From positions 1-34,960 of the forward strand of contig CALMWA010000002.1 in assembly GCA_937873125.1 (NCBI GenBank): DNA of 34,960 bases. The letters run 5' to 3'. Of this stretch, positions 23,835 to 29,772 are shown one piece after another. The notes below the pieces were generated by a model that saw only the letters and a program-made list of their open reading frames with translations, had not been told where the DNA came from and ran no database searches. A program made the translations under genes and the position numbers. Positions within the stretch are counted from its first letter, which is position 1; each line of letters opens with the position of its first letter. The DNA is from an uncultured Actinomycetes bacterium. Lineage in GTDB: Bacteria; Actinomycetota; Rubrobacteria; Rubrobacterales; Rubrobacteraceae.

Positions 23835-25517
23835 ATGCCGTCCTCTGTATATGAGAGCAAGCCGTGGCTCGACCTTTACGCCGACTACGTTCCAAAACAG
23901 TTGCCCCCGCCCGAGAAGAGCATGATAGACCTCTTCGAGGAATCGGCCGCCCGCGTCCCGGATCACGACGCCGTCCGCTATTTCGACGCCACCATCTCCT
24001 TTGCCGAGTTGAACCGGATGTCCGAAGCCTTCGCCGCCCGGCTCTCCAGCTGGGGCGTACGGAAGGGGGACCGCGTCGCCATCTACACACAGAACAACCC
24101 CCACTTCCTAATCGCCCAGTACGGCGCCTGGAAACTCGGCGCCATCGTCGTCCCGCTCAACCCGATGCTCAAAGCCCGCGAGCTCGACTACCACCTCAAC
24201 GACTCCGGTGCGAAGGTCCTCGTCTGCCTCGAAAATCTCTACCGGGACGTCGCCCGCGAGGTCGCGCCGAACACGCCCGTGGAGCGCGTGGTTACCGGCA
24301 GCGAACTGGACTTCCTTTCGGAAGGCGCGGCGTCGGAGACAAGCGTCCTCGCGGACGCCGAGAAGCTCAACTTCGACGAGACGGAAGACTTCATGCAAAC
24401 CATCTCGGACGCTATCGCGAATGCGCCGGAAGATTCGGGCTCCAGCACGCCGGTCTCGCCGGACGACATCGCTTACCTCGTCTACACGTCGGGGACGACA
24501 GGTAAGCCGAAAGGGGCCGTCGAGCTGCACAGCAACATCGCGTTCAACGCGGAGGTCTACCGGACCTGGATGCAAATTGGAGACGACGATTCCGTGTTCG
24601 GGATTGCGCCGCTCTTCCATATCACGGGAATAGTGGGACATGTGGCTCTGGCGGCGCTCGCCGGGGTGCCGCTGGTGCTGTTCCACCGCTTCGATCCCTC
24701 GGAGGCCCTGCGCCTCATAGAGAAGTGGCGGCCCACGATGACCATCGGGTCGATCACGGTGTTCATCTCGCTATTGAACTCGCCCGAATCCGGGAGCCGC
24801 GATCTCTCGTCCCTGGAGAAATGCTACAGCGGCGGCGCGCCCATAGCACCCAGCATCCCCGAGCAGTTCGAGAAGAAGTTCGGCGTCTACATCCACAACG
24901 CCTACGGCCTCACCGAGAGCAACTCCCCCACCCACTTCGTACCCTGGGGAACGCACGCCCCCGTGGACGAGTCTAGCGGCGCGCTCGCGGTCGGCGTCCC
25001 GGTCCCGAACTGCGAGGCACGCCTGTTGAAGATAGAAGACCCTTCGGAAGAGGCGCCGGTCGGGGAGCCCGGCGAGTTCGCCGCCAAAGGACCGATGATC
25101 TTCGCCGAGTACTGGAACAAGCCCGAGGCGTCCGAGAAAGCGTTCCACGACGGCTACTTCCTGACCGGGGACGTGGCGGTGATGGACGAAGAAGGCTGGT
25201 TCTACATAGTGGACCGGAAGAAGGACATGATCAACGCTGGCGGCTATAAGGTCTGGCCCCGTGAAGTCGAAGACGTCCTCTACACCCACCCTGCCGTGAA
25301 AGAGGCAGCCGTCGTCGGCATGCCGGACGAGTACCGGGGCGAGACGGTAAAGGCGTTCGTCGCGCTCAAGGACGGCGAAAGTGTGTCGGAGGAAGACCTG
25401 ATCCAGTACTGCAAAGAGAACATGGCCGCCTACAAGTACCCGCGCGAGATCGAATTCCGGGACGAACTCCCCAAAACCGCCACCGGAAAATTCCTCCGCC
25501 GCGAACTGCGCGGCTAA
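23835..25517 (+). CDS. Long-chain fatty-acid/acyl-CoA ligase (AMP-forming)
   Basis: AMP-binding motif YLVYTSGTTGKPKGAVELHSN; NAYGLTESNSPTHF; GYFLTGDVAVMDEEGWFYIVDRKKDMINAGGYKVWPREVE; PKTATGKFLRREL. Confidence 0.93.
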   Translation: MPSSVYESKPWLDLYADYVPKQLPPPEKSMIDLFEESAARVPDHDAVRYFDATISFAELNRMSEAFAARLSSWGVRKGDRVAIYTQNNPHFLIAQYGAWKLGAIVVPLNPMLKARELDYHLNDSGAKVLVCLENLYRDVAREVAPNTPVERVVTGSELDFLSEGAASETSVLADAEKLNFDETEDFMQTISDAIANAPEDSGSSTPVSPDDIAYLVYTSGTTGKPKGAVELHSNIAFNAEVYRTWMQIGDDDSVFGIAPLFHITGIVGHVALAALAGVPLVLFHRFDPSEALRLIEKWRPTMTIGSITVFISLLNSPESGSRDLSSLEKCYSGGAPIAPSIPEQFEKKFGVYIHNAYGLTESNSPTHFVPWGTHAPVDESSGALAVGVPVPNCEARLLKIEDPSEEAPVGEPGEFAAKGPMIFAEYWNKPEASEKAFHDGYFLTGDVAVMDEEGWFYIVDRKKDMINAGGYKVWPREVEDVLYTHPAVKEAAVVGMPDEYRGETVKAFVALKDGESVSEEDLIQYCKENMAAYKYPREIEFRDELPKTATGKFLRRELRG

Positions 25518-25699: not shown

Positions 25700-26668
25700 T
25701 TGACGGAGAAGAGAGGAGCGCCGTCCGTAATGGACCCGACGCAGATGTGGCGCCAGTGGTACGAGACGAGCACGAAGATGTGGCCGGGGATGTCCGGCGG
25801 GGCTCAGGGTAGTTTCATGGACCCTTACGGCCTGTTCCGGCAGTGGATGGACGGTCTGCGGGAGATGCAGCAGCGGATGCTCGGGGCGATGCCCGCGGGA
25901 ACGCCTTTCGCGCCCAACGGCGGCTCCGGCGCTCCGGCGGTTCAGGACCTCTGGCAGCGGTGGTCCGAGGCGACCACGGATAGCCTTCAGAAGGGTGCCG
26001 AGCTCGGCCAGAACGCGATGGAGATACTGCCGCGTTGGATGCAGATGCTCGAAGAAGCTCAGAACAACCTGCTGGCCGCCGGAAGCACCCCCACCGACCC
26101 GTTGCAGCTCGCCACCCAGTGGTACAACGCCACCAGCGGTCCCTTCTCGGACTTCGTCGGCGACGTCATAGAGCGCGAGGAGTTCCTGGAACCCTCAAGC
26201 CGCTTTTTGCAGAACTACGCCAGCTTCTACAAGGTCTACAAGCGCAACTCCGAGGAGTACCTCAAGAACCTCCAGCTTCCGGTACGCTCCGACATAACGC
26301 GCGTCGCCGGCCTCATCGTCAACCTGGAAGACAAGATCGACCGCATAGAGGAAGTCCTCGAAGACTTCGAGTACGGTGACGCCGAACCGGCCACCGCCGA
26401 GTCCGTGCAGGCCCTGGAGAAGCGCCTCGACCGGGTCGAAGGCAAGCTCGACCGGCTGCTCGCCGCGCTGGAGAACAACACCCAGAACGGTGGATCTCAG
26501 AGCGTCGCGCAGGTAGCGGAGACCAACGGCTCTCCCGTCGAGGTGAAAGCCACGGACGCCGCCCGGCGCAAGGCGCGGGAGATGGGCGTGGACCTGGCAA
26601 CCGTCAGCGGCACGGGGACGGACGGTCAGGTTACGGTGGACGACGTAAGGAAGAAGGGAGACAGCTAG
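25700..26668 (+). CDS. phaE: PHA synthase subunit PhaE-like protein with C-terminal E3-binding/PSBD-like domain; TTG start
   Basis: PhaE-like WRQWYETSTKMW…FLQNYASFYKVYKRNSEEYLKNLQLPVRSDITRVAGLIVNLEDKIDRIEEVL, directly followed by class III phaC; C-terminus VKATDAARRKAREMGVDLATVSGTGTDGQVTVDDVRK has the PSBD consensus. Confidence 0.83.
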   Translation: MTEKRGAPSVMDPTQMWRQWYETSTKMWPGMSGGAQGSFMDPYGLFRQWMDGLREMQQRMLGAMPAGTPFAPNGGSGAPAVQDLWQRWSEATTDSLQKGAELGQNAMEILPRWMQMLEEAQNNLLAAGSTPTDPLQLATQWYNATSGPFSDFVGDVIEREEFLEPSSRFLQNYASFYKVYKRNSEEYLKNLQLPVRSDITRVAGLIVNLEDKIDRIEEVLEDFEYGDAEPATAESVQALEKRLDRVEGKLDRLLAALENNTQNGGSQSVAQVAETNGSPVEVKATDAARRKAREMGVDLATVSGTGTDGQVTVDDVRKKGDS

Positions 26669-27769
26669 ATGACGGAGACCGCCAACTACGGCGAAGCGCC
26701 GACCACGCACGAGGGCATCGTACCCGCCGACGTAGAGAACTTCTTCGACAAGTACAGCAAGGGCATGAGGATCGTCGTCGAGGGCGCCCAGGCCGACACC
26801 GGCCAGACGCCCAAAGAGACGATCTGGACCAAGAACAAGGCCAAGCTCTACCACTACGCGCCGGCCGCCGAGAAGAAGCACCCGGTCCCCATCCTGATGG
26901 TCTACGCTCTCATCAACCGCCCGTACATCCTCGACCTCATGCCGGGCAACAGCTTCATCGAGTACCTCTGTTCGGAGGGCTTCGACGTGTACATGCTCGA
27001 CTGGGGCATTCCGGGCGATGAGGACCAGGACCTCGACTTCGAGAACTACGTCCTCGACTACATCCCGCGCGCCGTCAAGAAGGTGCTCAAGCACTCCGGT
27101 TCCGACGAGTTCACCCTGCTCGGCTACTGCATGGGCGGCACGATGAGCACCATGTACGCCTCGCTCTACCCGGAGCACCTCAAGAACCTCATCCTGCTGA
27201 CGGCCCCCATAGACTTCCCCGAGGGGGAGATGGGCCTCTACAGCCTCTTCACCAGTGAGAAGTACATGAACCCCAGCCTGCTCGCCGATGCCTTCGGCAA
27301 CATCCCCGGAGATCTCATAGACACCGGCAACCGGATGCTAAAGCCTGTCACCAACTACGTCGGCACCTACGTCAACATGTGGGAGCGCATCTTCGAGGAG
27401 AAGCCGATGGAGACCTGGCTCGCCATGAACAAGTGGGTCAACGACGGCCCGCCGTTCCCCGGCGCAACGTTCAAGCAGTGGATCTCCGAGTTCTACCAGC
27501 AGAACAAGCTCTCGAAGGGCGAGATCACCCTGCGGGGCCGCCGCGTGGACCTCTCGAACATCAAGGTCCCGCTCCTCAACATCGCCGGTAAGAAAGACCA
27601 CATCTGCGCCCTCCCCCAGGCCGAGGCGACCATGAACCTCGTCGGAAGCGAAGACAAGGAGTTCTTCGTCCTCGACGCCGGCCACGTCGGCCTCATGACC
27701 GGCCGCGGCGCCAAGAAAGGCTTGTGGCCCAAGATCGGCGGCTGGCTCGCCGAGCGCTCCGGCGCGTAA
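26669..27769 (+). CDS. phaC: Class III poly(3-hydroxyalkanoate) synthase subunit PhaC
   Basis: Lipase-like box LLGYCMGGTMSTMYASLYPEHLKNLILLTAPIDF; DHICALPQAE; DAGHVGLMTGRGAKKGLWPKIGGWLAER; 366 aa (class III size); ATG abuts the phaE stop. Confidence 0.93.
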   Translation: MTETANYGEAPTTHEGIVPADVENFFDKYSKGMRIVVEGAQADTGQTPKETIWTKNKAKLYHYAPAAEKKHPVPILMVYALINRPYILDLMPGNSFIEYLCSEGFDVYMLDWGIPGDEDQDLDFENYVLDYIPRAVKKVLKHSGSDEFTLLGYCMGGTMSTMYASLYPEHLKNLILLTAPIDFPEGEMGLYSLFTSEKYMNPSLLADAFGNIPGDLIDTGNRMLKPVTNYVGTYVNMWERIFEEKPMETWLAMNKWVNDGPPFPGATFKQWISEFYQQNKLSKGEITLRGRRVDLSNIKVPLLNIAGKKDHICALPQAEATMNLVGSEDKEFFVLDAGHVGLMTGRGAKKGLWPKIGGWLAERSGA

Positions 27770-27846: not shown

Positions 27847-29772
27847 TTACTTCTCTTTAACGTAAGTGCCGGGAGCGTCCTCTATGGGCGGGTAGTTGTC
27901 GTTGCCCACGCTCGGCGGGTCCCCCTTCTCGCCGGAGCGAGGCTCGAGCCAATTGGTCCAGTCCTCCCACCAGGAGCCCTCATGCTCGGTGGCGTTGGCC
28001 CGCCACTCCTCGGCGCTCTTGGCGGAGCCGGCATCGCCCTCCTCGTTTACCCAGTGCTTACCCTTGCCCTTGCTCGGAGGGTTGATCATGCCCGCGATGT
28101 GACCGCTGTTGGCGAGCGCGAAACGGGTCTTGGCGTTGGTTATCTGCCCGACCTTCCAGGCCGAGTACCAGGGTACGATGTGGTCCTTCTCCGCGCCTAC
28201 GGCATAGATCTCACCCTCGATCTTGCCGAGGTCTATGGAACGGTCCAGGACTTTCACTTTGCCCGGCTTTATGAGGTTGTTCTCCAGGTAGGTGTTGCGG
28301 ATGTAGAAGCTGTGGGCGTCGCGGGCCATGCGCGTGCCGTCGGCGTTCCAGTAGAGCAGGTCGAAGGCCGGCGGTTTCTGGCCGAGCAGGTAGTTATTGA
28401 CGACGTTCGACCAGATCAGATCGTTCGATCTCAGCAGGTTGAACATGTTCGCCATCTTGCGGTTGTCGAGGTAGCCACGCTCCATCATCTGCTGCTCCAT
28501 GAACTCCACCTGCGGCTCGTCCATGAATACCGCCGTATCCCCCACGTCGTCGAAGTCCTGCAGCGAGACCATGAACGTCGGGGCGTGGAAGGGGTTCTCG
28601 TCGCCGCCGGCGGCGAGCCAGGCGATAGTGACCGCCAGCAGAGTCCCGCCGACGCAGTACCCGACCGGGTTGACCTTATCCGAGCCGGTAATGTTCTTCA
28701 CGGCCTCGACCGCTGCGAGAGGCCCCTTCGTCATGTAATCCTCGAACTTCGTGTCCTCCATCGAGGCGTCCGGGTTCTTCCAGGAGGTCATAAAGACCGT
28801 GTATCCCTCGTTAACGAGGTAGTTGACCATGCTGTTCTTCGGCGTGAGGTCGAGGATGTAGTACTTGTTGATCCAGGGCGGGAAGAACAGTATCGGCGTC
28901 TCGTAGACCTTCTCGGTCTGCGGCTCGTACTGGATCAGCTCTATCAGCTCGTTACGGTACACGACCTTGCCCGGCGTGATCGCCAGGTTCTCGCCCGGCT
29001 GGAAGGCCGTAGCATCGGTCATGCTCATCCGCCCCTCCTGCAGGTCCGCGAGGAGGTTGCGGGTCCCCTCGGCGAGGCTGGCACCGCCCGTCTCCGCCGC
29101 GCGCTTGAGGGCGGCGGGGTTGGTGAGCAGGTAGTTCACCGGCGCCATCGCGTCCACGAACTGCTGCAGGTGGAACTTCAGCCGGCGCTGTTCGTTCGTG
29201 TCGTCGCCGTCGGTCTCCTCCGCCTCTTTCAGCAGGAACTCGGAGGCGAGCAGGTAGGACTCCTTGAGCGTCTGGTAGAACGGGTTCGACTCCCACTCGG
29301 GGGCGGAGAAGCGCTTGTCCGGGCGTCCCTCCTCTTTCTTCTCCTGGGTCGGCAGACCCCAGAAACGGTTCGCCGACTCGCGCCAGGCGTCCATCGTCGC
29401 CCCGAAGAGCTTAGCGTTGAAGTCCGTGGCGCGCTCCATCGCGCGTTGCGGGTCGGACATCTCGCGTGCCCACAGTGTCTGAAGGGATTTAGAGATCTCG
29501 ACCCAGTTGATCGGGAGCACGTTCTGCATCGGGTTGGCGTCCCACAGCTTCTCCATCGCGGAGAGCAGAGGATCGTTGGCTATGGCCCCGCTGGGCAACT
29601 GGCTGGTCTCGTCACCCGTGGAGACGCCCGGCGACATCAGCCAGGGGACGCTGGCGCCCGGCGTCGCGCTCATCGCGCCCATGTTCGCCCGCATCCACTC
29701 CGACCACATCTCGAACGGAGCCATCGGACTCGCCGCATTGGATCCGCCGTTGCCTGTTCTTCCTTCGCTCAT
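27847..29772 (-). CDS. phaC: Class I-type poly(3-hydroxyalkanoate) synthase PhaC
   Basis: NPVGYCVGGTLLAVTIAWLAAGG box; FFPPWINKYYILDLTPKNSMVNYLVNEGYTVFMTSWKNPD; AVGAEKDHIVPWYSAWK; ANSGHIAGMINPPSKGKGKHWVNE; 641 aa. Confidence 0.94.
   Translation of the reverse strand: MSEGRTGNGGSNAASPMAPFEMWSEWMRANMGAMSATPGASVPWLMSPGVSTGDETSQLPSGAIANDPLLSAMEKLWDANPMQNVLPINWVEISKSLQTLWAREMSDPQRAMERATDFNAKLFGATMDAWRESANRFWGLPTQEKKEEGRPDKRFSAPEWESNPFYQTLKESYLLASEFLLKEAEETDGDDTNEQRRLKFHLQQFVDAMAPVNYLLTNPAALKRAAETGGASLAEGTRNLLADLQEGRMSMTDATAFQPGENLAITPGKVVYRNELIELIQYEPQTEKVYETPILFFPPWINKYYILDLTPKNSMVNYLVNEGYTVFMTSWKNPDASMEDTKFEDYMTKGPLAAVEAVKNITGSDKVNPVGYCVGGTLLAVTIAWLAAGGDENPFHAPTFMVSLQDFDDVGDTAVFMDEPQVEFMEQQMMERGYLDNRKMANMFNLLRSNDLIWSNVVNNYLLGQKPPAFDLLYWNADGTRMARDAHSFYIRNTYLENNLIKPGKVKVLDRSIDLGKIEGEIYAVGAEKDHIVPWYSAWKVGQITNAKTRFALANSGHIAGMINPPSKGKGKHWVNEEGDAGSAKSAEEWRANATEHEGSWWEDWTNWLEPRSGEKGDPPSVGNDNYPPIEDAPGTYVKEK

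Follow-up and report, generated by a model that had tools for sequence, protein, structure and literature searches.

The accessory subunit of a PHA synthase of Rubrobacteria carries, at its C-terminus, a complete peripheral subunit-binding domain (PSBD). PSBDs are familiar from textbooks as components of pyruvate-dehydrogenase-type complexes. We found this fusion in an open reading frame of a 34,960-nucleotide contig stretch from an uncultured member of the class (hereinafter, the window); it is class-wide in Rubrobacteria, not peculiar to the window genome, and its PSBD belongs to a distinct subfamily (hereinafter, satellite PSBDs) that, in many Rubrobacteria, is also attached to the ribosomal protein bL20 and to phasin-like proteins. 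The most likely reading, to which we assign about even chances, is that the PSBD of PhaE is a repurposed docking tag that would recruit a partner to the PHA granule.

The phaE open reading frame has a TTG start codon with an AGGAGG-like site just upstream. A sequence-only reading of the window had proposed that the encoded protein ends in an E3-binding domain that follows an NNTQNGGSQ linker. The linker and the C-terminal sequence were quoted exactly, and the proposal is borne out by the profile and structure comparisons that it called for. The PF02817 profile matches residues 283-317 over model positions 2-36 of 36, that is, across the full domain, with 40.2 bits against a curated cut-off of 23.7 (E=4e-10), and the tail matches PSBDs of known structure (1W4I, E=1.8e-8; also 1EBD and 1W85). 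In the AlphaFold2 model, residues 281-320 are the best-predicted part of the chain (pLDDT 91-96), with helices at 286-295 and 313-321, and the remainder of the chain is helical at modest confidence. A Foldseek search with the tail retrieved the PSBD in an E1 complex (1W85_I; TMt 0.91, rmsd 0.9 A, prob 1.00) and the PSBD in an E3 complex (2EQ9_C; TMt 0.81). The two-helix fold is present in the predicted tail, which is a complete, true PSBD. No lipoyl or acyltransferase domain was matched by Pfam in the 322-residue protein.

The upstream part of the protein had been described as PhaE-like. It is indeed a relative of the accessory subunits, but PhaE/PhaR-like is the better designation. The match to the class IV PhaR model (TIGR02132; 67.1 bits, E=1.8e-18, under the cut-off of 148.4) identifies a clear relative that lies outside the family cut-off. 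The matches to the class III PhaE models are marginal (E-values of 0.05-0.1 overall): PF09712 yields 12.3 bits against a cut-off of 25.7 (E=0.1), and TIGR01834 yields 13 bits against a cut-off of 155. This part of the protein resembles PhaR more than PhaE. As in known PhaE/PhaR systems, the gene lies directly 5' of a class III phaC, the gene adjacency that characterizes class III PHA synthase operons; unlike the known subunits, the window protein contains the additional linker and PSBD. The ligase/phaE gene order recurs in other Rubrobacteria (L109, L134). A previous study of PHA synthesis in Rubrobacter reported that every complete genome encodes both class I and class III synthases, and described a PhaE of about 35 kDa with homology ambiguous between PhaE and PhaR (PMC8146576); the main text of that paper contains no mention of a 'binding domain'. 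The convergently encoded class I PhaC of the window (27847-29772, minus strand) has an N-terminal extension of ~110 residues, in which a 'PFEMWSEWMRANMG' stretch, rich in W, is reminiscent of the N-terminus of PhaE ('DPTQMWRQWYETSTKMW').

Table. Features of the pha locus in the window and other loci encoding satellite PSBDs
Feature	Location	Strand	Extent or context	Basis
Accessory subunit of a class III/IV PHA synthase, phaE/phaR-like, with a satellite PSBD at the C-terminus	25700..26668	+	322 aa	
PhaE/PhaR-like helical part and coiled coil	25700..26473	+	residues 1-258	TIGR02132 (E=1.8e-18) over residues 133-281; A4 profile; conserved W/DP...WYNATSGP core
Variable linker, probably flexible	26474..26542	+	residues 259-281	mean pairwise identity 0.13 (28 orthologs); pLDDT about 40 across most of linker
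Satellite PSBD (E3_binding fold)	26543..26650	+	residues 282-317	
Conserved C-terminal tail KKGDS	26651..26665	+	residues 318-322	ortholog alignment
Class III phaC, catalytic partner	26669..27769	+	directly 3' of phaE	TIGR01836, 394 bits (cut-off 365)
Class I phaC	27847..29772	-	convergent neighbour	TIGR01838, 665 bits (over cut-off)
Acyl-CoA ligase	23835..25517	+	5' of phaE	PF00501, E=8.9e-89
bL20 with long C-terminal extension, 1-2 acidic satellite PSBDs	L029:5187-6044		contig C14, window genome	
bL20 with same extension type	L035, L098, L100, L104, L105, L110, L119, L120, L123, L128, L130, L132			
PSBD coiled-coil cluster	L028:2692-7642		contig C181; equivalents L096, L099, L101, L103, L107, L127	
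Phasin-like proteins ending in PhaE-type PSBD	L109:2524-3429; L134:566-1681		inside pha locus	

PhaE homologs were detected in 37 of the 40 Rubrobacteria genomes examined, and satellite PSBD matches (E<=1e-13) in 39 of the 40; both are present in all 22 good-quality genomes. The window comes from a draft assembly of 471 contigs, so the fusion might be suspected to stem from chance resemblance, assembly error or contamination. However, Rubrobacter marinus SCSIO 52915, whose chromosome is complete, and R. taiwanensis both encode the same fusion, and this recurrence, together with the E-values and the fold match, makes an artefact of any of these kinds exceedingly improbable; chance and assembly error are ruled out by the independent genomes, one of them complete, and the fold match.

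Among 28 orthologs, the mean pairwise identity is 0.13 in the linker compared to 0.72 in the PSBD (0.67 in the best part of the core), which is strong evidence of selection acting on the PSBD. Along the domain, the A-T-x-A-A-R-R ... D-V-R-x-K-G residues are nearly invariant. The PSBD could serve solely as a structural cap, that is, a fast-folding terminal domain that confers stability, solubility or protection from C-terminal proteolysis. PSBDs of thermophiles and hyperthermophiles are called small ultrafast folders in the titles of PDB entries 1W4E-1W4J, and the tag is C-terminal in every tagged PhaE and usually so in other proteins. Nevertheless, the near invariance of residues along the domain exceeds what a cap would seem to require, and several proteins contain internal or tandem copies, so we consider a pure cap quite unlikely. 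In a few copies of PhaE, the PSBD is truncated or lost: one protein retains only '...VDDVSRKGAS' (L185), another ends without the domain (L197), and a third stops ahead of it (L193/L216). These natural knock-outs could aid functional tests.

The core of PhaE does not include the tag, given that the tag is missing both in a second group of PhaE-like paralogs found in some genomes (L199, L202, L204, L206, L208) and in four homologs from Chloroflexota (L200, L201, L203, L205; L200 is partly masked) that consist of the core without a PSBD. These four Chloroflexota genomes contain only weaker PSBD matches that are E2-like in strength and length. Accordingly, the PSBD is ruled out as a general feature of PhaE/PhaR proteins. 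The survey of satellite PSBDs covered Actinobacteria and the four Chloroflexota genomes. Among the matches listed for the 397 Actinobacterial genomes sampled, the core of PhaE is restricted to Rubrobacteria, and the best satellite match outside the class has an E-value of 4e-15; the matches retrieved from the 12 top-scoring non-Rubrobacteria genomes are nearly all E2s with catalytic motifs, which rules out the satellite PSBD as a general Actinobacterial feature among the matches listed. Given that the tag is class-wide in Rubrobacteria and absent from the Chloroflexota relatives, the simplest scenario is its gain in or near the rubrobacterial ancestor, where the PSBD would presumably have been taken from an E2 of a 2-oxoacid dehydrogenase and put to new use as a docking tag at the C-terminus.

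The window genome encodes 13 PF02817 domains over the cut-off: four in E2 proteins, one in the window PhaE, one in a second PhaE that is also encoded 5' of a phaC (L030), two in tandem in bL20 (Ribosomal_L20 E=8e-43) and five in three proteins of the cluster on contig C181. Across the class, the carriers of satellite PSBDs include bL20 (13 loci), coiled-coil or low-complexity proteins of conserved clusters, small coiled-coil proteins and phasin-like proteins. The cluster proteins contain one to four PSBDs each. One of them is a coiled-coil protein ('QNLQQQ...') that has repeats of the AEQAGQ type and a single PSBD; its paralog contains two to four PSBDs, and a third protein, from the 'DVLLDVPVLNVEEL...' family, contains one. 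In composition, these proteins are tentatively phasin- or LEA-like; the phasin-like label is tentative because Pfam and structure searches with the N-terminal region of a cluster protein yielded weak, mixed matches (WXG100-like, apolipoprotein, phasin). Two further proteins, encoded within pha loci, end in a PSBD of the PhaE type; in L109, the gene order is class I phaC, tagged phasin-like gene, class III phaC, phaE, ligase. Neither of these two proteins has a Pfam phasin match, and we read them as phasin-like from composition and position. Two other loci (L131:3348-3767 and L129:3431-3889) encode short membrane- or coil-like proteins ('ERAEELVDR...GYLASFVGLRLLKGASLAREEAEDIWAEAQSLRR') whose C-terminus is a satellite PSBD; the L131 gene adjoins a very large open reading frame of about 1,100 aa. 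The PSBD search did not detect tagged bL20 in genomes such as G014-G016 and G026-G028, and in several genomes (G013-G016 and G026-G028, a group that, judged by its contig, includes R. taiwanensis) PhaE is the sole carrier of a satellite PSBD at E<=1e-13.

The satellite PSBDs are a subfamily distinct from the E2 PSBDs, and every PhaE tail falls within it. A phylogenetic tree separated 128 satellite from 49 E2 PSBDs with no errors (support 0.93), and a leave-one-out profile test gave no misassignment; the comparison set consisted of Rubrobacteria satellites, Actinobacterial E2s and a few PDB sequences. The PSBD of the Pyrobaculum E2, the closest solved structure, scores on the E2 side. Within the satellite group, where trees of ~37 columns are weak, the PhaE tags cluster, at low support (0.57), with four other tags, of which three belong to phasin-like or related proline-rich proteins. 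The PhaE and E2 PSBDs share the fold, the length, the GTGxxG motif and the flexible linker. In contrast to E2, where the domain lies between the lipoyl and acyltransferase domains, the PhaE PSBD is C-terminal, and the satellites have lost the proline ahead of helix 1. Furthermore, position 137 (Bacillus E2 numbering) is charged in satellites and hydrophobic in none of 129, compared to 46 of 50 E2s, and position 159 is Val or Ile in 122 of 129 satellites but in only one of 50 E2s. The earlier suggestion of a repurposed protein-interaction module is supported.

The equivalents of R135, R139 and R156, which we take to be the positions of the E2 PSBD that contact E3 and E1, are differentially conserved. 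The window PhaE has Arg at the first two and Gln at the third, as had been read from the sequence. Among 29 PhaE tails, R135 is kept in 27, K136 in all and R139 in 12, whereas R156 is kept in five, including L054 and L055, and replaced in 24, by Gln in 21. All 24 Rubrobacteria E2s have Arg at the R156 position; R139 varies among these E2s too. In bL20 tags, the R135 position is occupied by Glu in 19 of 24, and the mean net charge is -6.8, that is, acidic, compared to the near-neutral -0.3 of the PhaE tags.

These patterns bear on the canonical mode of docking, in which the PhaE PSBD would bind dihydrolipoamide dehydrogenase (E3) or E1, such that part of a 2-oxoacid dehydrogenase would reside at the granule and couple the supply of acetyl-CoA and NADH, or the redox state, to polymer synthesis. 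The true PSBD fold, with the nearest structures bound to E1 and E3, the conservation of R135 and K136 along with R139 in the window protein and R156 in L054 and L055, and the presence of four E2 genes and several Lpd homologs in the window genome are compatible with such docking. However, the prevalent Gln in place of R156, the separate grouping of the satellites, in which position 137 lacks the hydrophobic residue typical of E2s, and the strongly acidic bL20 tags that mostly lack R135 argue against it, as does the absence of a lipoyl domain in PhaE, because of which a docked E1 or E3 would miss the usual swinging arm. We therefore regard canonical docking as a real but minority possibility. 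The mammalian and fungal E3-binding protein (protein X) similarly attaches its partner enzyme to a large assembly through a PSBD, but it retains an E2-like core and a lipoyl domain (PMC6270654), both of which are missing in PhaE.

The PSBD could also be a tether to the nucleoid or the ribosome that would place granules and share them out. PhaF of Pseudomonas is a nucleoid-binding, phasin-like granule tether. For PhaM of Ralstonia, binding to both DNA and granules has been demonstrated, with PHB granules attached to the nucleoid (PMC3556143). Like these proteins, PhaE would associate with the granule and carry an additional binding region, and the same tag on bL20 offers a possible link to the ribosome. 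In PhaE, however, the added region is a neutral PSBD on the synthase subunit itself; neither the near-neutral PhaE tags nor the acidic bL20 tags resemble basic DNA-binding tails, so a tail of the PhaM/PhaF type finds no support, and in several genomes PhaE is the only tagged protein. Such a tether is unlikely.

Under the favoured reading, that of a repurposed docking tag, the PSBD, connected to the PhaE coiled coil by a flexible linker, would allow the PhaE-PhaC synthase to bind a partner at the growing PHA granule, and the synthase, along with the tagged phasin-like proteins where these are present, would thereby be clustered or brought into position. E3 is probably not the sole partner: the occurrence of the same tag on bL20 and phasin-like proteins disfavours a purely E3-specific role, and although the retention of R135 and K136 keeps E3 or E1 among the candidate partners of PhaE, docking of this kind would leave the tag family as a whole unexplained. 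The partner may be one shared receptor, or there may be several receptors for different types of tags. Given that PhaE is the only satellite carrier in several genomes, a role that requires other tagged proteins is not universal, and the partner of PhaE must exist without them. We tentatively consider, as a less probable extension, a PSBD-derived plug-and-socket system, loosely similar in logic to dockerin-cohesin, in which PhaE, phasin-like proteins, multi-PSBD coiled-coil proteins and bL20 would dock on a common receptor or receptors, linking storage granules with other cell assemblies.

In the open-access literature, we found no description of PHA synthase subunits, phasins or ribosomal proteins with a PSBD; the PF02817 match on these proteins may already stand in automatic database annotation. 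The findings described here indicate that, in one bacterial class, a PSBD was turned into a general C-terminal tag that is present, among other proteins, on a bioplastic-making enzyme, and the shared, modified form of the domain suggests a lineage-specific "plug" in Rubrobacteria. Identification of a socket would yield a docking tag of about 40 residues, small and of natural origin, for PHA granule engineering. It would also explain in part why Rubrobacter PhaE is larger than PhaR, and would help in understanding the organisation of granules in these extremophiles.
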